Below, in pieces: positions 1 through 6,540 of a stretch of DNA of 6,540 nucleotides. Both the position numbers and the translations under genes were made by a program. Under the pieces are notes generated by a model, which did not search any database, was not told where the DNA came from, and was given only the letters and a program-made list of their open reading frames with translations. This DNA is from Betaproteobacteria bacterium (GTDB lineage: Bacteria > Pseudomonadota > Gammaproteobacteria > Burkholderiales > SG8-39), in assembly GCA_029865405.1 (NCBI GenBank), contig JAOUGZ010000156.1:1-6540 (forward strand). The letters are read 5' to 3'. Position 1 is the first letter of the stretch. Every line of letters begins with the position of its first letter.

Positions 1-1
1 C

Positions 2-610
2 CCGCGCTCGAAGTCGGTGGTCTTCACCACCGACTTGCCGCTGGAGGTCGACCGGCCGATCGACTTCGGCCTGCAGGCGGTGTGCAACATGTGCCAGAAA
101 TGCGCACGCGAGTGCCCGTGCAACGCAATTCCCTTCGGCCCGAAGGTGATGTTCAACGGCTACGAGATCTGGAAGCCCGACGTCGAGAAGTGCGGCCGCT
201 ACCGGCTCACCAACGCCAAGGGCTCGGCCTGCGGGCGCTGCATGAAGACCTGCCCGTACAACCGCGAGGACCTGGTGGAGTCGGAAAGACTCCTGTGGCT
301 CTCGATCGAGGTGCCGGCCGCGCGGCGCGCCCTCATCGATTACGACGACGCCACCGGCGGCGGCGAGCGCAACCCGGTCAAGCGCTGGTGGTTCGACCTT
401 GAGATCGTCGACGGCGCCGCAGTGAAGCCCGCGGCAGCGAACGAGCGCAATCTCGACTTCGGGCGTGGGGAAAAGCTGGCGAAGACGCAGAAGCTGGCGT
501 TCTTTCCGCCGGAACTGCAACCCAAAGGCGGTACCACGCTCAAAGAGGTGGTGCCCATCGACCGCGAGGCCGGACTCGCGGCCTACGCGGCAGCGAAGAG
601 GTGCAAATGA
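2..610 (+). CDS. Reductive dehalogenase-like (RdhA-type) protein, C-terminal part with two 4Fe-4S clusters
   Basis: The frame is open to the left edge, so the gene starts outside the window; the GTG at 17 is internal. 202 residues are visible. Numbered from the first full codon, there are two cluster motifs: C28-x2-C31-x2-C34-x3-C38-P, and C64-x12-C77-x2-C80-x3-C84-P. The 12-residue gap, the segment IDFGLQ before the first motif, NGYEIW between the motifs, and GSACGRC and CPYN in the second are hallmarks of corrinoid-dependent reductive dehalogenases (PceA/RdhA), where the two clusters feed electrons to cobalamin. The catalytic cobalamin-binding part would lie upstream and cannot be seen. About 118 residues follow the last cysteine, longer than I expect for classical respiratory RdhA, and this tail has no further cysteine cluster. 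The distantly related QueG also has two such clusters, but the motif details fit RdhA better. Whether it dehalogenates anything is unknown. Its stop overlaps the next gene. Confidence 0.8.
   Translation, partial: PRSKSVVFTTDLPLEVDRPIDFGLQAVCNMCQKCARECPCNAIPFGPKVMFNGYEIWKPDVEKCGRYRLTNAKGSACGRCMKTCPYNREDLVESERLLWLSIEVPAARRALIDYDDATGGGERNPVKRWWFDLEIVDGAAVKPAAANERNLDFGRGEKLAKTQKLAFFPPELQPKGGTTLKEVVPIDREAGLAAYAAAKRCK
595..603 (+). promoter_or_regulatory. Shine-Dalgarno site for the small secreted protein gene
   Basis: The purine-rich GAAGAGGTG lies inside the end of the upstream gene. Its GAGG core is 5 bases before the ATG at 607 and 8 before the ATG at 610. It therefore supports a start at one of these two codons rather than the in-frame GTG at 601, which lies inside the site. 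Confidence 0.6.
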
Positions 611-967: not shown

Positions 968-2074
968 TTACGGCAGCGCGCGCACGATCTCGCTGTCGGG
1001 ATTGAACGCCAGCCAGGCGAACGCGAAGTGCACGCCGCCCTCCAGCGCCGCGAGGCGCTCGCCCTTGAGCGGTCCCGCCACCGCTTCGCCCAGGACGTTC
1101 CAGCGCGAGCCGGTCGCCCGGTCGACGAACTCGCCGTCGCGCTGCGCGAACTCGAGCACGCCCTCCGCGACGCGCCGGTCGAAAACCGTCGCCGCCGGAA
1201 TGCGGCGGCCTTCGGCAATGTCCTGGCTGTCGAGCGGGGACGCCATGTCGGCCTTGGCGAAGACCACGTACGGCACGTCGCCCAGCTTGCGGTTGGACAC
1301 CGGGTGGCGCTCGAGTAGCGACAGCGGATACAGGCGATGCTTGCCCGCCACGCTCACCGACAGCACGCGCTCCATGGGTGGCAGCCGTCCATCCGGCGCC
1401 TGCGAAAGCAGGAACGGGCTCTGCCGGATATCGTCGTAACCGACATAGGGATTGCGCCCGTAGGGGCGCGCATGGCCGGTCTCGCGCGACAGCACCAGGC
1501 CGGCCGGGTACGCGGCGGCGAAATCGGCGAACGACACGATCTCCGCGGGCAGGCGCTCGAGGCGGGTGCCGGCGTAGTGGCCGACGATGCCGGTGCCGGT
1601 GAACTGCTGCCACCACGACTCGGTCTGCCGGTCGTACATCACCAGGTCGGAAAGGCGCAGCCGCCCGGTGGTGCCGAAATCGAGCGTGCGCCCGCCGACG
1701 TTGCGGTCGAACACCATCGAAGCGTTGCACAGCGGGCAGAAGGTCACCGCCACCGGCCGTCCGGCGGGGGTGTCGTTGACGATCTCGTGGAACATGAGGA
1801 TCTGCAGGGGATAGGCGCGCGCTTCCTTGCCGACGCGCAGGACGATGACCGGCTCGGCGGGCTTCAGCCAGGCGCGGGCCGCGCGCGCGCCGACGAAGCG
1901 CGGCCGGTCGATGGCGGGGATGCCGTCCTTTGGCGGACCGCCCGACTGGATCTCGGCGAGATCCACGGTGCGGCGGGAGAAATCGGTCTTCGGCCATTCC
2001 GCCCGATCATTGGCGCCCTGGCCGAGCGCCAGGGCGGGCGCGAGCAGCAGCGCGGCGAGCGCGGCGCGACTCAT
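968..2074 (-). CDS. DUF3179 domain-containing exported protein
   Basis: The product is 368 residues. The first 18 or so are a Sec signal peptide (MSRAALAALLL, then an Ala/Leu core ending ALALG). The rest matches the DUF3179 family as I know it: an FHEIVND segment with H96, then VTFCPLCNASMVFDR with Cys113 and Cys116, then FGTTGRLRLSDLVMYDRQT and ESWWQQFTGTGIVG. The biochemical function of DUF3179 is not known to me. The C-P-L-C pair in an exported protein could bind metal or act in redox chemistry, but that is inference. The ATG overlaps the TGA of the DoxX gene (ATGA) and has no good ribosome site of its own, so translation is probably coupled. This is the last gene of the minus-strand operon. 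The reading frame stays open upstream inside the DoxX gene, but the signal peptide and the overlap fix the start here. Confidence 0.85.
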   Translation of the reverse strand: MSRAALAALLLAPALALGQGANDRAEWPKTDFSRRTVDLAEIQSGGPPKDGIPAIDRPRFVGARAARAWLKPAEPVIVLRVGKEARAYPLQILMFHEIVNDTPAGRPVAVTFCPLCNASMVFDRNVGGRTLDFGTTGRLRLSDLVMYDRQTESWWQQFTGTGIVGHYAGTRLERLPAEIVSFADFAAAYPAGLVLSRETGHARPYGRNPYVGYDDIRQSPFLLSQAPDGRLPPMERVLSVSVAGKHRLYPLSLLERHPVSNRKLGDVPYVVFAKADMASPLDSQDIAEGRRIPAATVFDRRVAEGVLEFAQRDGEFVDRATGSRWNVLGEAVAGPLKGERLAALEGGVHFAFAWLAFNPDSEIVRALP

Positions 2075-2532
2075 GCCGGCGCCGATACGTAGCGCCGGCG
2101 GATCCAGTGATCGATCGAGAGCATCCCCGGCCCGTGGCACAGCGTGACAAGCAGCAGCACGCCCCAGTAGAAATGCGACATCAGGGCGGCCTCGTTGCCG
2201 CCCAGCACGTGCCAGAAGGAGATCACCGCCATCACGTTTACCACGGACAGCGACAGCGCGGCAAAGCGCGCCGCCAGGCCGAGCGCGAGCAGCGGCGGGA
2301 AGGCGAGCTCGCCGAAGGTGCCGAGCCACGCCGCTGCCTCGGGCGGCAGGAGCGGCACGCGGTACTCGTTCTTGAACAGGTACAGCGTGCCGTCCCAGTT
2401 GCCGATCTTGAGCAGGCCCGAGCGGAAGAAGATCTCGGCCACGTACACGCGGATGCCGAGATCGACGAGGTGCGCGGCGGCGTTCAGCCAGCCGCGCACG
2501 CGGTGGCTCCAGGCGATGAGCTGTGGGTTCAT
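2071..2532 (-). CDS. DoxX-family membrane protein of the bufferin operon
   Basis: The product is 153 residues with about four membrane helices, near residues 20-38, 66-86, 88-108 and 115-137. This matches the length and topology of DoxX proteins. Family-like features are the segment AEIFFRSGLLKI at the end of helix 1, followed by a Trp/Asp turn (GNWDGT), and a His in FWHV. DoxX genes are frequent partners of DUF2282/DUF692/DUF2063 clusters; as I recall, the gold-induced gig cluster of Cupriavidus metallidurans has one too. A role in electron supply or in handling the copper-loaded peptide at the membrane is possible but unproven. The ATG overlaps the stop of the DUF2063 gene (ATGA), with a GGAG 10 bases upstream. 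The gene overlaps the next start in the same way. Confidence 0.85.
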   Translation of the reverse strand: MNPQLIAWSHRVRGWLNAAAHLVDLGIRVYVAEIFFRSGLLKIGNWDGTLYLFKNEYRVPLLPPEAAAWLGTFGELAFPPLLALGLAARFAALSLSVVNVMAVISFWHVLGGNEAALMSHFYWGVLLLVTLCHGPGMLSIDHWIRRRYVSAPA

Positions 2533-3218
2533 TGTGCGATCACTCCGGCTTGGACCCAGGCGGCGAAGGCCATCCGGGCAACGAACGCGGCATCGGCGGC
2601 AGTCGCGGCCTCGAGCGCGGGGCCGAGTGCGTCGCCGGCCCGCAGCCGCTCGAGGAAGCGGTAGTCGCCGGCGCCGAGCGAACATACCTCTACGCGCCAT
2701 CCGGCGCGGTGCACGAGGATACGATCGGGGCCCGCGTCCAGGTTCACCGACGCGGGGTCGCCGCCCTCCTGGTGCGCCTCCCAGATGCGCTGCAGCGGCC
2801 AGGCGGAACCGAGCAGCGCACAGGGCGGCGCGAGGCGCACCTCGGTCGGGCGCGACAGGTCGAACGGCGGCGGGTCGGCGGCATAGAAGGCGAGGTGCGC
2901 GAGCCACTCCATGCGCGCGACGTCGGGCAGGTAGGGCAGGTCGGCGGCCTGCGGATAGCCGTCGAGGAAGGCGGCGAGCTGCGCCCCGTACTCGTGCAGG
3001 TCGCCGCTCGCCGAAGGCGATACCTGCGAATAGTCGCGCGCCATGACCTCGAAGCACGCCGCGCCGACGATGGCGCGCACGATCGGATAGGCGCCTGCAA
3101 GCGCGGCGCTCCAGTTGCCGAACACGTTGGCGCGGTAGACGCGCATGCGTGCCGGACCGGCCGCGGCATCGAGCAGCGCGGCCGCGAACGCGCGCTGCTG
3201 CTCAAGCAGCGACAGCAT
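2529..3218 (-). CDS. bufC: DUF2063 (BufC/HvfC) partner protein of the MNIO enzyme
   Basis: The product is 229 residues, a normal length for the family. The N-terminal DUF2063 domain spans about residues 5-105. It has the typical [11 protein letters not shown] and [14 protein letters not shown] segments, an EYG motif with AAFLDGYP, and [15 protein letters not shown]. The second half contains the usual [11 protein letters not shown] followed by a beta-rich end. Proteins of this family were once annotated as DNA-binding. In MNIO systems they act as the partner that presents the precursor peptide to the DUF692 enzyme. The ATG lies inside the last 17 bases of bufB, with GGAAG 6 bases before it, so the genes are coupled. 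The neighbours make the assignment strong. Confidence 0.9.
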
Positions 3219-4029
3219 GCATCGCTTCCAGGCGCGCCTGCGCCTTGCGCGCCTCGTCGAGCAGCACCTCGAGCGGCGGCACGTCCGTGTCCCACTCGAT
3301 CAGCGTCGCCACCGGCCCGAACAGGCCGAGCGCGGCCTCGTAGAGGCGCCACACGTCGTCGGCGACGCGTGCGCCATGGGTGTCGATGAGGCAATCCTCG
3401 CCGGCGGAATGGCCCGCGAGGTGGATCTCGCACACGCTCTCGGGAGCGAGCGCGCGCATTTGCGCCAGCGCGTCGCGCCCGAGGTTGACCTGGTTCACGT
3501 ACAGGTTGTTCACGTCGAGCAGCACGCCGCAGCCCGAGCGCCGCGCCAGCGCAGCGAGGAACTCGCCTTCGTTCATCTCGTGCGGACCCGGCTCGAGATA
3601 GCAGGACACGTTCTCCACCAGAAGGCGCCGCCCGAGCCGGTCCTGCAGCCGCGACACGCGGCTGGCGACCAGATCGAGGGCCTCGCGGGTGTAAGGCAGC
3701 GGCAGAAGGTCGTTGAAATGGCGGCCCGCCGCCGCGCCCCAGCACAGGTGCTCGGAGACGAACGCCGGCTCGACGCGGTGCACGAGCTCGAACAGCCGGT
3801 TCTCGTGCCGCACCGAGTAGCCCTCGGCCGAGCCTAGGCCGAGCCCCACCCCGTGCAGGCTGAGCGGGTAGTCGCGGCGCAGCGACTCCAGTACGGCGCG
3901 CTCGCGCCCGCCGGCGCCGAAGTAGTTCTCGCTGTGCACCTCGAGCCAGCCGGCCGCGGGCCGCGCGCCGCCGACGAAGTCGGCGTAGTGCCGCGCGCGC
4001 AGCCCGATGCCGGCGCCGAGCTGCGTCAA
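3202..4029 (-). CDS. bufB: DUF692 multinuclear non-heme iron oxidase (BufB, MNIO)
   Basis: The product is 275 residues from the proposed TTG start. It is a TIM-barrel enzyme of the DUF692 family, which uses two or three iron ions and oxygen to modify cysteines in a precursor peptide; in bufferins these become 5-thiooxazoles. Conserved segments are visible in order: GAGIGLR (5-11), EVHSENYF (30-37), LSLHGVGL (56-63), SEHLCW (92-97), LVENVSCYL (137-145), [10 protein letters not shown] (170-179), EIHLAGH (201-207), DTHG (216-219) and IEWDTDVP (244-251). These supply the His, Glu, Asp and Asn residues expected around the metals, so the enzyme looks intact. No ATG or GTG fits before the conserved GIGLR. 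The TTG, two bases after the bufA stop and with GAAGG upstream, gives the expected N-terminus. Longer versions would run inside bufA and are unlikely. Confidence 0.93.
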
Positions 4030-4031
4030 GC

Positions 4032-4319
4032 TCAGCCCTTCTTCATCTTGGCCAGACGGCCGGCCTCGCCCTGCTTCATGCTGCCGCCCATCTGCACGCA
4101 GGTTCCGGCCTTCACCACCTTGAAGTCGTTCGGGTCGTAGTCCATCTTGGATTGCCCGGCGCAGGAATGCGCGGTCTTGTTGCTGCCGCAGTCGTTCTTG
4201 CCGGCCTTGGCCACGCCCCAGCACTTTTCCTGGTCCTTGTCCTGCGCGAACGCGCCACCGTGCGCGCCGAGCGCGAACAGTCCGGCCACGGCTGCTGCAA
4301 CGAGGGTCTTCTGATCCAT
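4032..4319 (-). CDS. bufA: DUF2282 bufferin precursor peptide (BufA), Sec-exported, four cysteines
   Basis: The product is 95 residues. Residues 1-25 are a Sec signal (K4, an Ala/Leu/Gly core, cleavage after AFA). The mature part has exactly four cysteines: C33, C44, C53 and C74. They sit in the typical DUF2282 pattern [14 protein letters not shown], then HSCAGQSK, then a DPNDFK segment and AGTC. In known bufferins some cysteines are converted to thiooxazoles and the mature peptide binds copper in the periplasm. Which cysteines are modified here cannot be read from sequence. The tail after C74 is rich in Met, Gly and Lys (GGSMKQG to MKKG). A strong ribosome site precedes the ATG. This is the first gene of the operon, two bases from bufB, and the long upstream frame is not part of it. 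Confidence 0.93.
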
Positions 4320-4358: not shown

Positions 4359-4400
4359 GTCCGTGTAGGTCGCCTGCGCGCCGTGCGTATTACGGGTCCC

Positions 4401-4428
4401 GGAATATCTTTTTGCGGGTGTAAGGTTT
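4401..4428 (+). promoter_or_regulatory. Candidate ECF-type promoter for the sigma/anti-sigma genes
   Basis: In the divergent gap, plus strand, CCGGAATA resembles the GGAA-type -35 element of ECF sigma factors. A short T-run follows, and TGTAAGG about 14 bases later is a possible -10 region. This is also one of the few AT-rich patches nearby. Transcription would start near 4433, giving a short leader before the ATG at 4455. The exact -10 is uncertain. The match is by eye and no promoter for this sigma group was compared. Confidence 0.35.
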
Positions 4429-4454
4429 GCCCGCCAGCCCGGGTCTTGTGCAGG

Positions 4455-4967
4455 ATGGCAACTGCAAGAACCGAGGAGCTGGCGCGCCTGCGTCCGAAGC
4501 TCATGGCATTCGCGCTGCAGCGCACGCGCAGCCGCGATCAGGCGGAAGACGCGGTGCAGGAGGCGCTGGTGGCAGCGCTCGAGGGGCTGCATCGCTACGC
4601 CGGGGGCTCCTCGCTCAGCACCTGGCTATTCGGTATCCTGAAGCACAAGATCGTCGATGGCCTGCGCCGCGGGCCGCGCGAGGAAGCCCTGGACATGGAA
4701 CTGGATGATCTGCAGCACGAGGGGCCCGGTCCCGAGCAGACCTGCGCGAGCCGCAACGCGCTCGCGGCGATCGACCGCAGCCTGGACAGCCTGCCGGTGC
4801 GCTCGGCCCAGGCGTTCGTGCTGCGTGAGGTCCTGGGCATGGAGACGGATGAAGTGTGCCGCACGCTGCAGGTGACGCCGACGCATTGCTGGGTGCTGGT
4901 GCACCGGGCGCGCATGCGGCTGCGCGCGTGCCCCGAGGTCGGGCGCATCGTGGCCGAGGCCGGCTAG
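4455..4967 (+). CDS. ECF sigma-70 family sigma factor (first of two)
   Basis: The product is 170 residues. The sigma-2 domain spans about 9-75, with region 2.2 DQAEDAVQEALVAAL (28-42) and region 2.4 STWLFGILKHKIVDGLRR (55-72), which reads the -10 element. After a linker, the sigma-4 domain spans about 104-160, with VLREVLGMETDEVCRTL and a recognition helix around TPTHCWVLVHRARMRLR. There is no sigma-1.1 or sigma-3, which defines the ECF type. The LGMETDEVC and CWVLVHRARMRLR segments resemble a proteobacterial ECF subgroup that, as I recall, is usually followed by a short zinc-finger anti-sigma; none follows here. The ATG at 4455 gives the normal N-terminus but has only AGG directly before it. 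A TTG at 4446 is an alternative. It is divergent from bufA, so control of the bufferin operon is a reasonable inference. Confidence 0.88.
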   Translation: MATARTEELARLRPKLMAFALQRTRSRDQAEDAVQEALVAALEGLHRYAGGSSLSTWLFGILKHKIVDGLRRGPREEALDMELDDLQHEGPGPEQTCASRNALAAIDRSLDSLPVRSAQAFVLREVLGMETDEVCRTLQVTPTHCWVLVHRARMRLRACPEVGRIVAEAG

Positions 4968-5446
4968 TGGGATTCGAGGAAACCGTCCGCACCCATGCCG
5001 CTGATCTGTACCGCTACGCCTATTGGCTCGCGCGCGACCCCGCGCAGGCCGAGGACATCGTGCAGGAAGCGCTGCTGCGCGGCTGGCGCGCGTTTCCGCG
5101 CCTGCGCGAGCGCGCCGCGGCCAAGGCGTGGCTGTTCTCCATCGTGCGCAACGAATACCTGCGCGCCCTCGGCAGTGCGCCGCCCGCCGCGGAGAGCCTG
5201 GACGGCCTGGACCTTCCGGACGAGCGCCCGGAGCTGTTCGGCCTGGAGATGCGCGACGCGCTCGCCGCGCTGCCCGTGTCCTACGCCGAACCGCTCGCGT
5301 TGCAGGTGCTGGGCGGGTTCAGCTGCGCGGAGATCGCCGACATGATCGGCGCGACCGAAGGCGCCACCATGACCCGCCTGACGCGGGCGCGCCAGGCGCT
5401 CAGGCGGCTGGTGACGCCGAAGGATCGCAAGGCGGGGCCCGCATGA
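4967..5446 (+). CDS. ECF sigma-70 family sigma factor (second of two)
   Basis: The product is 159 residues from a GTG start. The sigma-2 domain spans about 3-70, with region 2.2 DPAQAEDIVQEALLRGW (24-40) and region 2.4 KAWLFSIVRNEYLRAL (53-68). The sigma-4 domain spans about 90-150, with ALPVSYAEPLALQVLGGFS, then a helix-turn-helix CAEIADMIGATEG and LTRARQALRRL. The GTG shares its G with the TAG stop of the first sigma gene, and GAGG lies 7 bases upstream, so coupling is likely. Its sequence differs clearly from the first sigma (RNEYLRAL against LKHKIVDGLRR in region 2.4), so this is not a recent duplication and promoter specificity may differ. Its stop overlaps the anti-sigma start, marking it as the direct partner of that protein. 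Confidence 0.9.
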   Translation: MGFEETVRTHAADLYRYAYWLARDPAQAEDIVQEALLRGWRAFPRLRERAAAKAWLFSIVRNEYLRALGSAPPAAESLDGLDLPDERPELFGLEMRDALAALPVSYAEPLALQVLGGFSCAEIADMIGATEGATMTRLTRARQALRRLVTPKDRKAGPA

Positions 5447-6099
5447 TCTGCCTCGACTACCGCCGTCAGCTCCTCGCCGGCACTGGCGAGACGGACGCCA
5501 TGCGCGTGCACCGCCTGCAGTGCGCGTCCTGCGCCGCCGAATGGACGGAGCAGGGTGCGTTCGAGGACACCCTGCGCGAGGCTCTGCAGGTGCCGGTGCC
5601 CGCAGGCTTCGCCGAGCGCATGGCGCAGGCGCAGGTCGCGCGCCGGCGCACGTTCCTCGCCGTCGCCGCGACCGCGCTGGTGGCGGCCGGCGCGGGCGGA
5701 TATGCCTGGCTCGCGCGGCAGGATCCGCTCGCGCTCGCCTGCATCGACTTTGTCATGAAGGAAGAGGCGAAGTCGATCATGCTCGGTGCCATGCCGCGCG
5801 CGGAGGCGCAGGCCGCGCTGGCGCCGACCTTGGCCCTGGAGCGGCTCGAGCGCGTCGGCGAGGTGAAGCACGTGCGGCCGTGCCCGTTCAACGGCCAGAC
5901 CGCATACCACGTGGTGCTGGCCGTGCCGCAGGGCATGGTGACCCTCCTGGTGATGCCGGCGACGCGCATGACGGGCAGGCGCCACGCGACGAAGGAAGGT
6001 CTGCACGCCGATGTCGTCGCGCTCGAGCGTGGCAGCGTCGGCATCGTCGGCACGGACCTCGCCGTGGTGATGAGCGTGGCGGGCGCGCTGCGCGCCTAG
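5443..6099 (+). CDS. Membrane anti-sigma factor with zinc-binding motif (DUF3379-like)
   Basis: The product is 218 residues. The cytosolic N-terminus has Cys3 and H23-x3-C27-x2-C30, the signature of zinc-binding anti-sigma (ZAS) domains that hold an ECF sigma. A single membrane helix runs about residues 70-90 (FLAVAATALVAAGAGGYAWL), preceded by three arginines, which suits an N-in, C-out topology. The periplasmic part of about 125 residues has Cys100 and Cys147 (in RPCPFNG), plus His143 and His156, which could sense redox state or metal; that is inference. The C-terminal half resembles the DUF3379 family found beside ECF sigma genes, but I judge this from memory. The ATG overlaps the TGA of the second sigma (ATGA), the usual sign of a sigma/anti-sigma pair. 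A second anti-sigma for the first sigma is not visible. Confidence 0.82.
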   Translation: MICLDYRRQLLAGTGETDAMRVHRLQCASCAAEWTEQGAFEDTLREALQVPVPAGFAERMAQAQVARRRTFLAVAATALVAAGAGGYAWLARQDPLALACIDFVMKEEAKSIMLGAMPRAEAQAALAPTLALERLERVGEVKHVRPCPFNGQTAYHVVLAVPQGMVTLLVMPATRMTGRRHATKEGLHADVVALERGSVGIVGTDLAVVMSVAGALRA

Positions 6100-6254
6100 G
6101 CGGCGCGCTCGAACGCGGCACCGCTGCGCAGGCGCTCGAAGTAGGAGCGGTGTGCGTCGCAACCCGCCGGCCAGAGCTCGGGGAAGCGCTGCGCCCACGC
6201 GGCCGCGTCGTAGCGGTAGGGACGCGGGCAACGGCGGCCGGGCGTCGTGTCCAT
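6096..6254 (-). CDS. Possible small protein of 52 residues, unknown
   Basis: This short minus-strand frame would encode 52 residues. It begins MDTTPGRRCPRPYRYDAAAW, and segments such as AQRFPELWPAGCDAHRSYFE give a natural amino-acid mix rich in aromatic residues. Third codon positions are mostly G or C, as in real genes here. It fills the space between the anti-sigma and the next gene. Against it: no ribosome site is visible before the ATG, and no family is recognised. Its TAG stop and that of the anti-sigma gene lie in the same CTAG palindrome. An in-frame stop at 6309-6311 and the lack of another start leave the ATG at 6254 as the only good start. Confidence 0.45.
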   Translation of the reverse strand: MDTTPGRRCPRPYRYDAAAWAQRFPELWPAGCDAHRSYFERLRSGAAFERAA

Positions 6255-6318: not shown

Positions 6319-6540
6319 ATGAAGAACTTCGGCGAGTCGTTCACCCACGCCGCCGGGGCGCTGCTCGAACGCCTCGCCGCGCACCTGCCGAGCCTGATCG
6401 GCGCCATCGTGCTGCTCGCGGTGGGCTGGGTGCTCGCGCGCCTGCTGCGCATCCTGACCGTGCGCGGCATGCACCTCGCCGAGACCTTGATCGAGCGCCT
6501 GGCGGGCCCGTCGCGACTGCGCGTGGGCCGCTCGGCGAAC
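6319..6540 (+). CDS. Probable mechanosensitive ion channel (MscS family), N-terminal part
   Basis: The frame runs from the ATG at 6319 off the right edge; 74 residues are visible. An amphipathic start (MKNFGESFTHAAGALLERLA) precedes a membrane helix at about 24-44 (LPSLIGAIVLLAVGWVLARL) with Arg at its cytosolic end. The pattern of LP, a Gly-containing hydrophobic run, GW, then AR/LLR is typical of the first helix of small MscS-type channels, which release solutes during osmotic downshift. The pore helix and beta domain lie outside the window, so the call rests on one helix. No clear Shine-Dalgarno site precedes the ATG. GATACTAT at 6305-6312 could be a -10 element, which would make the transcript nearly leaderless. 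It is read in the same direction as the anti-sigma gene but is separated by about 220 bases, so it is probably its own unit. Confidence 0.6.
   Translation, partial: MKNFGESFTHAAGALLERLAAHLPSLIGAIVLLAVGWVLARLLRILTVRGMHLAETLIERLAGPSRLRVGRSAN

Follow-up and report, generated by a model that had tools for sequence, protein, structure and literature searches.

A Buf1 bufferin operon paired with a divergent sigma factor and DUF3379 operon: a probable ECF stress regulon with an accessory DUF3179 gene

Bufferins form large families of copper-handling modified peptides, and two questions about them are how their operons are activated where control is not of the NrsF type and which partner proteins act together with the exported product. 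Both are raised by a 6,540-nucleotide stretch of a Betaproteobacteria bacterium genome (GCA_029865405.1, contig JAOUGZ010000156.1; hereafter the window), in which a bufferin operon that ends in a DUF3179 gene lies back to back with two sigma factor genes and a DUF3379 gene. In our view a Buf1 bufferin cluster here probably operates as a divergent stress regulon of the extracytoplasmic function (ECF) sigma type.

Gene calls were taken from the open reading frame list and the DNA, and families were assigned by Pfam and NCBIfam profile scans of the window proteins (Table 1). Five minus-strand genes between 968 and 4319, bufA, bufB, bufC, doxX and the DUF3179 gene, stand in one tight row: 2 nt lie between the stop codon of bufA and the start codon of bufB, bufB and bufC overlap by 17 nt, and ATGA overlaps join bufC to doxX and doxX to the DUF3179 gene. 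A first-pass annotation had proposed a complete, tightly coupled operon of a DUF2282 precursor with four cysteines, a DUF692 oxidase, its DUF2063 partner and a DoxX protein, and all four profile checks (PF10048, PF05114, PF09836 and PF07681) agree with it, at scores so large that chance is excluded as the source of the matches. BufB also exceeds the cut-off of NF050167, "MNIO family bufferin maturase" (350.8 versus 310 bits), its TTG start is in register with the ATG starts of bufB in loci L001 and L002 (L and G numbers denote loci and genomes), and it has a solved homolog, 3bww (E 6e-33). BufC and the DoxX protein score below the NCBIfam cut-offs for HvfC (55.7 versus 142 bits) and HvfX (52.4 versus 80 bits), and are thus relatives rather than members of these equivalogs. 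The DUF2063 partner in a Buf1 cluster is expected to have an RRE-type domain. The four cysteines of BufA, in the contexts KC, DC, SC and TC, are invariant in 11 of 11 aligned BufA proteins, and by eye its N-terminus resembles a signal peptide (lysine, hydrophobic core, AFA-Q).

By its sequence the operon is therefore a Buf1 (gig-type) bufferin cluster, a class that is already known, as the annotation had stated. Buf1 precursors have been described as carrying four conserved cysteines, of which the central ones are modified and the first and last form a disulfide, and as being exported by Sec to hold copper in the periplasm through thiooxazoles (PMC12452194). Following this pattern, the change expected in BufA is two modified cysteines plus one disulfide, rather than a loss of 4 Da at each of the four cysteines; the figure of 4 Da is given for another precursor, FonA (PMC13097082). 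By analogy with the family, BufA would be modified, bind copper and be induced by copper.

The proposed extent of the operon, 968 to 4319, holds for its named parts but not as a boundary, because the divergent sig1-sig2-DUF3379 operon (4455-6099, plus strand), in which each gene overlaps the next, goes with it. This switch had been overlooked, as had the unusual status of DUF3179. Sig1 remains below the TIGR02943 cut-off (146.6 versus 162.2 bits), and gene overlap and adjacency speak for a putative binding and inhibition of its ECF sigma factor by DUF3379. All 21 aligned DUF3379 proteins have C3, H23, C27 and C30, giving H-x3-C-x2-C with an upstream cysteine, which we take to be the zinc-type anti-sigma (ZAS) motif. 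Two residues of the C-terminal region that is predicted to be periplasmic, C147 and H156, are likewise present in all 21; a set of 31 closer homologs has C147 throughout and H156 in at least 90%. The structure model (mean pLDDT 78, pTM 0.56) has N-terminal helices, a long helix at 56-90 with a pLDDT of only 51-57 and then an alpha/beta domain near pLDDT 90, in which the adjacent strands 140-149 and 152-161 carry C147 and H156. The top Foldseek rows for this model include RseB and MucB, which act as sensors in other anti-sigma systems, with no E value below 0.04. An NrsF-type anti-sigma factor was also considered and rejected: a Pfam scan of the DUF3379 protein at E 0.1 returned no NrsF (PF06532) and listed, besides DUF3379, a DUF2537 match under its cut-off.

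Table 1. Features of the window and the evidence for each
Feature	Position	Strand	Evidence
DUF3179 protein, signal-peptide-like start, C112-P-L-C115	968..2074	-	PF11376 338.7 bits vs cut-off 27
doxX-type membrane protein	2071..2532	-	PF07681 54.7 bits vs cut-off 23.6
bufC, DUF2063 partner protein	2529..3218	-	PF09836 79.7 bits vs cut-off 27.2
bufB, MNIO enzyme (formerly DUF692), TTG start	3202..4029	-	PF05114 333.6 bits vs cut-off 25
bufA, Buf1 precursor (DUF2282, 95 aa)	4032..4319	-	PF10048 80.1 bits vs cut-off 22.4
bufA promoter (inferred), degenerate ECF-type, CGTAATA-N15-CGACCT	4367..4394	-	alignment of related loci
sigma-operon promoter, ECF-type, TGTAAGG-N16-GGTCTT	4419..4447	+	match to the spacing-16 motif
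sig1, ECF sigma factor, TIGR02943-like	4455..4967	+	PF04542 and PF08281 over cut-off
sig2, ECF sigma factor	4967..5446	+	PF04542 and PF08281 over cut-off
DUF3379, predicted one-helix membrane anti-sigma factor	5443..6099	+	PF11859 69.9 bits

Does the sigma operon act on the bufferin genes? The motif TGTAAGG-N16-GGTCTA was read from the DNA that lies upstream of bufA or the sigma genes in ten loci, and was then counted on both strands of the 23 loci in which sig2 adjoins DUF3379 (372,429 bases; GTAA core, at most one mismatch). Spacing 16 gave 18 sites, spacing 10 gave one, and spacings 11-15 and 17-22 gave none; seven of the 18 lie in the loci from which the motif was read and 11 in later additions to the set. 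Twelve stand before a sigma gene and three, perfect or with one mismatch, before bufA (L003, L061 and L187), while the others stand before a C92-DUF3179 unit (L186), a unit of lipoprotein, six-cysteine precursor and bufB (L190) and another gene (L188, at 2152). Ten of the 23 loci have no spacing-16 site at this stringency; in L129, L130, L131, L185 and L205 one is found at two mismatches. The exact 13-base motif was found eight times in a sample of 98 genomes of the family, and seven of these sites precede a sigma-DUF3379 operon or bufA (G003, G063, G386, G459, G439 and, twice, G465); the remaining one (G432) precedes neither. Because loci that have sig2 without a local sig1 (L002, L003 and L187) retain the motif, we infer that it belongs to Sig2.

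On the bufA side of the window, GTAA and GCGAC are invariant between the window, L202, L001 and L002 (4/4). A second form, TGTAAGG-N15/16-CGACTA, precedes bufA in nine of 76 other bufferin loci (L017, L026, L032, L036, L050, L052, L055, L071 and L078), and in L071 it also precedes a short anti-sigma-like gene, itself located after a Sig1-like gene. A relay from Sig2 through Sig1 to bufA is possible. Pairs of a Sig1-like ECF gene and a short anti-sigma-like gene lie near a bufferin gene in L071 (3706-4514), L062 (4979-5861) and L039 (2982-3802), all without DUF3379, and are perhaps the older home of Sig1.

Gene neighbourhoods also link DUF3379 with bufferin genes. Of the 16 DUF3379 rows that pass the cut-off in the 98 genomes, eight are no more than 5 kb from an MNIO gene, against 0.01 expected, and nine no more than 10 kb; one row below the cut-off was left out of this count. 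The window DUF3379 protein has matches in 15 genomes of a sample of 399 from the order. In seven of these bufB lies beside it (G001, G020, G027, G069, G074, G386 and G390), and in eight it was not seen (G043, G052, G063, G096, G130, G136, G206 and G247); the match in G130 is on a 4.6-kb contig, and those in G206 and G247 are weak and partial.

Other cysteine-rich genes also adjoin DUF3379. Secreted-looking proteins with NPCA(AK) cysteine repeats are encoded beside sig2-DUF3379 in L184, L185, L186, L188, L118 and L127, all of them contigs that lack bufB; those of L186 and L188 end in a SoxA/TsdA-type cytochrome c domain, and that of L185 is an antisense trace only. It is possible that these proteins replace the bufferin in the DUF3379 regulon. 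Six-cysteine, Buf2-looking precursors followed by bufB occur in L116 (7152-7560, plus strand) and L190 (13031-12500, minus strand, where a small Met/Lys-rich lipoprotein-like frame comes first), and the motif stands upstream with two mismatches in L116 and one in L190. These units contrast with the description, in PMC12452194, of sigma and NrsF genes as found in Buf1 but not Buf2 clusters.

What does DUF3179 do at the end of such an operon? It is a reported selenoprotein family with a UxxC/T motif, listed in two review tables, which suggests a thiol-redox role. CPLC is invariant in 22 of 22 aligned DUF3179 proteins. The ligands of a Rieske [2Fe-2S] cluster are CxH ... CxxH; such a set was rejected for the window protein, which has only two cysteines, C112 and C115, both in CPLC. 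As for its company, eight of 23 DUF3179 rows in the 98 genomes lie within 10 kb of DUF3379, against 0.02 expected under uniform placement at 3.6 Mb per genome, and four lie within 10 kb of an MNIO gene. Seven DUF3179 genes are at least 64% identical to the window copy, and five of them share a contig with sig2-DUF3379 (L184-L188). In L187, bufABC faces a sig2-DUF3379-DUF3179 operon across two perfect promoters. The DUF3179 gene of G003 is unlinked, but TGTAAGG-N16-GGTCT lies just upstream; this genome has exactly three exact sites of that form, preceding bufA, sig2-DUF3379 and the unlinked DUF3179. The motif in L186, and at two mismatches in L185, precedes a C92-peptidase-like gene (by eye in L185) and then DUF3179; no motif was found before DUF3179 in L184 and L188, and the DUF3179 of G471 has neither sig2-DUF3379 on its contig nor the motif upstream. 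Given this linkage to the motif and to sig2-DUF3379, DUF3179 appears to be a member of the ECF regulon rather more than of bufferin clusters in general. Another recurrent neighbour of DUF3179 and sig2-DUF3379 is a gene for a C92 (YaeF/YiiX-type) papain-like amidase, in L186 at 6551-7327 and, similar by eye, in L185, L117 and L118.

Taken together, we propose that DUF3379, as a membrane anti-sigma factor, would hold Sig2 through its zinc domain until a thiophilic metal or a redox change at C147/H156 releases it, copper being the first candidate by analogy with known bufferins. Sig2 would then transcribe its own operon and bufABC-doxX-DUF3179, directly or via Sig1. BufBC would convert the two central cysteines of BufA to thiooxazoles, and after Sec export the outer cysteines would form a disulfide and BufA would bind Cu(I) in the periplasm. 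DUF3179 may be a periplasmic dithiol protein of the same regulon that acts on redox or disulfide state; that its target is the bufferin or metal-hit thiols is a tentative suggestion.

Several observations weigh against this proposal. Of 80 bufferin loci retrieved by means of BufB, a set that includes short contigs, only four contain DUF3379, which is a minority form of bufferin control; none contains DUF3179 (phmmer, E 1e-4), which makes it an unusual part of the operon. The annotation had named DUF3179 in its title but had left it out of its reasoning. The closest loci, L202, L002 and L001, have no DUF3179 behind doxX, and DUF3179 stands next to sig2-DUF3379 also on contigs without bufB (L184, L185, L186 and L188). 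Five of the 23 loci (L117, L118, L127, L128 and L203) have no spacing-16 site even at two mismatches, and the promoter on the bufA side of the window is itself degenerate. Finally, the exact motif is not commoner in the 98 genomes than its reversed control (8 versus 6); with six control matches its count is ordinary, and only the places of the sites are telling.

These points bear first on DUF3179, which might be a passenger behind the doxX of an ordinary Buf1 operon, unrelated to the bufferin. Its absence from the 80 loci and from behind doxX in the closest relatives fits this, as does its occurrence in 12 of the 399 genomes sampled from the order, for the most part at a distance from bufferin genes. 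The interval that separates doxX from P2, a convergent gene, is 5 bp in L202 and L002 versus 1,127 bp in the window. The gap is longer in L001, where a 65-codon frame has a signal-peptide-like start and an end resembling DUF3179 C-termini (best E 0.052), and this frame makes loss in the relatives as likely as gain in the window. DUF3179 was not found elsewhere in G439 or G002, genomes whose completeness is not given, while a DUF3179 gene of 40% identity was found elsewhere in G001. Against a passenger stand the ATGA overlap with doxX, the shared promoter before the unlinked gene of G003, the proximity to DUF3379 in eight of 23 rows and the L187 operon facing bufABC, and we regard this explanation as possible but clearly the less favoured one.

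The second alternative concerns the signal, and is best weighed against known systems, since ECF control of bufferin operons has been described in Caulobacter, Sinorhizobium and Cupriavidus (PMC3511200, PMC6180224, PMC10304878). In Caulobacter, sigma-F and the membrane anti-sigma factor NrsF control DUF2282-DUF692-DUF2063(-DoxX) operons (CC3254-CC3257 and CC2905-CC2907); the anti-sigma factor has conserved cysteines, essential in NrsF, and the promoter GTAACC-N16-CGAA shares the GTAA core and N16 with the window motif (PMC3511200). NrsF has six predicted membrane spans and, in the available part of that account, no zinc motif is mentioned (PMC3511200), whereas the window DUF3379 has one predicted helix; the window further differs in its two sigma genes, its -10 element and DUF3179. 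In Cupriavidus metallidurans the bufferin-type operon gigPABT is divergent from the ECF gene rpoQ and the putative anti-sigma gene rsqA, with DUF3179 not named in the part of the paper available (PMC10304878). Sinorhizobium meliloti RpoE7/EcfR7 controls a DUF692-DUF2063 operon (SMb20530-SMb20527), with a TGTAAC-type -35 element in both promoters; the differences from the window are a CGAA -10 element and, as far as the available text goes, no DUF3179 (PMC6180224). Buf1 clusters in general share the core of precursor, MNIO enzyme, DUF2063 partner and DoxX, the four cysteines and the presence of sigma genes; their named anti-sigma factor is NrsF, and DUF3179 and DUF3379 are absent from the main text of its description (PMC12452194). 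The literature searched contained no mention of DUF3379, and its mentions of DUF3179 were none of them about bufferins. To judge by its genes, then, the window works like the known ECF-controlled bufferin systems but is not of the NrsF type; the bufferin class is known, and the parts that look new are the sigma/anti-sigma switch with DUF3379, the two sigma genes and the accessory DUF3179.

Within this frame the bufferin could serve a stress other than copper, such as other metals or sulfur and thiol stress. The Caulobacter sigma-F regulon, to which two bufferin operons belong, responds to chromate and cadmium, and one of its members is a sulfite-oxidase subunit (PMC3511200); in L186 a sulfur transporter gene and a SoxA/TsdA cytochrome gene lie near sig2-DUF3379 and DUF3179, as does the cytochrome gene alone in L188. 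However, bufferins are described as copper chelators (PMC12452194) and gig is induced by copper and gold (PMC10304878), so that we find this alternative rather doubtful. Still less probable, in our opinion, is that the sigma-DUF3379 operon serves other genes and that bufA uses a sigma-70 or metal-regulator promoter. The lack of a good motif copy on the window's bufA side would suit it, as would DUF3379-sigma pairs on contigs without bufB (L115, L117, L118, L127, L184, L185, L186, L188 and L203), but the good copies before bufA in L003, L061 and L187, the GTAA and GCGAC kept in all four related loci and the proximity of half of the DUF3379 rows to MNIO genes speak against it. An assembly accident behind the DUF3179 arrangement is not likely, on indirect evidence: by eye, among the matches listed (best 120), DUF3179 and P2 have best matches from the same source with an equal longest contig in six cases, as do DUF3179 and DUF3379 in six, one 178,713-base contig being common to both comparisons and one further equal-sized pair per comparison being left out for its different sources.

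The flanks of the window hold further genes. P2 (607-966, plus strand) encodes a secreted-looking protein of 119 aa with a conserved HPH and other conserved histidines and no match in a Pfam scan, and its homologs also lie near DUF3179 in L185, L186, L188 and L193. Before it, likewise convergent with DUF3179, is the end of a 4Fe-4S protein gene (1-610, plus strand), a reductive-dehalogenase relative at 78.9 bits, below the cut-off of 160.35. Beyond DUF3379, a 52-aa frame (6096-6254, minus strand) resembles by eye the first part of a roughly 311-aa gene located, in L002 (5504-6439), between DUF3379 and the next gene. The gene start at 6319-6540 (plus strand), presumably MscS by its look alone, keeps its place beyond DUF3379 in L001, L002 and L202.

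A wider and more speculative proposal, to which we give limited credence as a whole, is that DUF3379 may represent a new type of anti-sigma factor, one that senses metal or thiols in the periplasm and governs a regulon of interchangeable secreted cysteine-rich sponges (Buf1, Buf2-like and NPCA-repeat cytochromes), that DUF3179, Rieske-like with a dithiol replacing the cluster ligands, may be a new periplasmic redox partner of bufferins, here inside the biosynthetic operon, and that Sig1 and Sig2 may form a relay between two promoter types. Our favoured reading, a Buf1 cluster run as a divergent ECF regulon, is directly testable, since the promoter is named, the one-helix candidate sensor has two conserved candidate ligands, and the DUF3179 gene follows the promoter even when unlinked. 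If true, it would provide the first roles for two domains of unknown function, DUF3379 and DUF3179.

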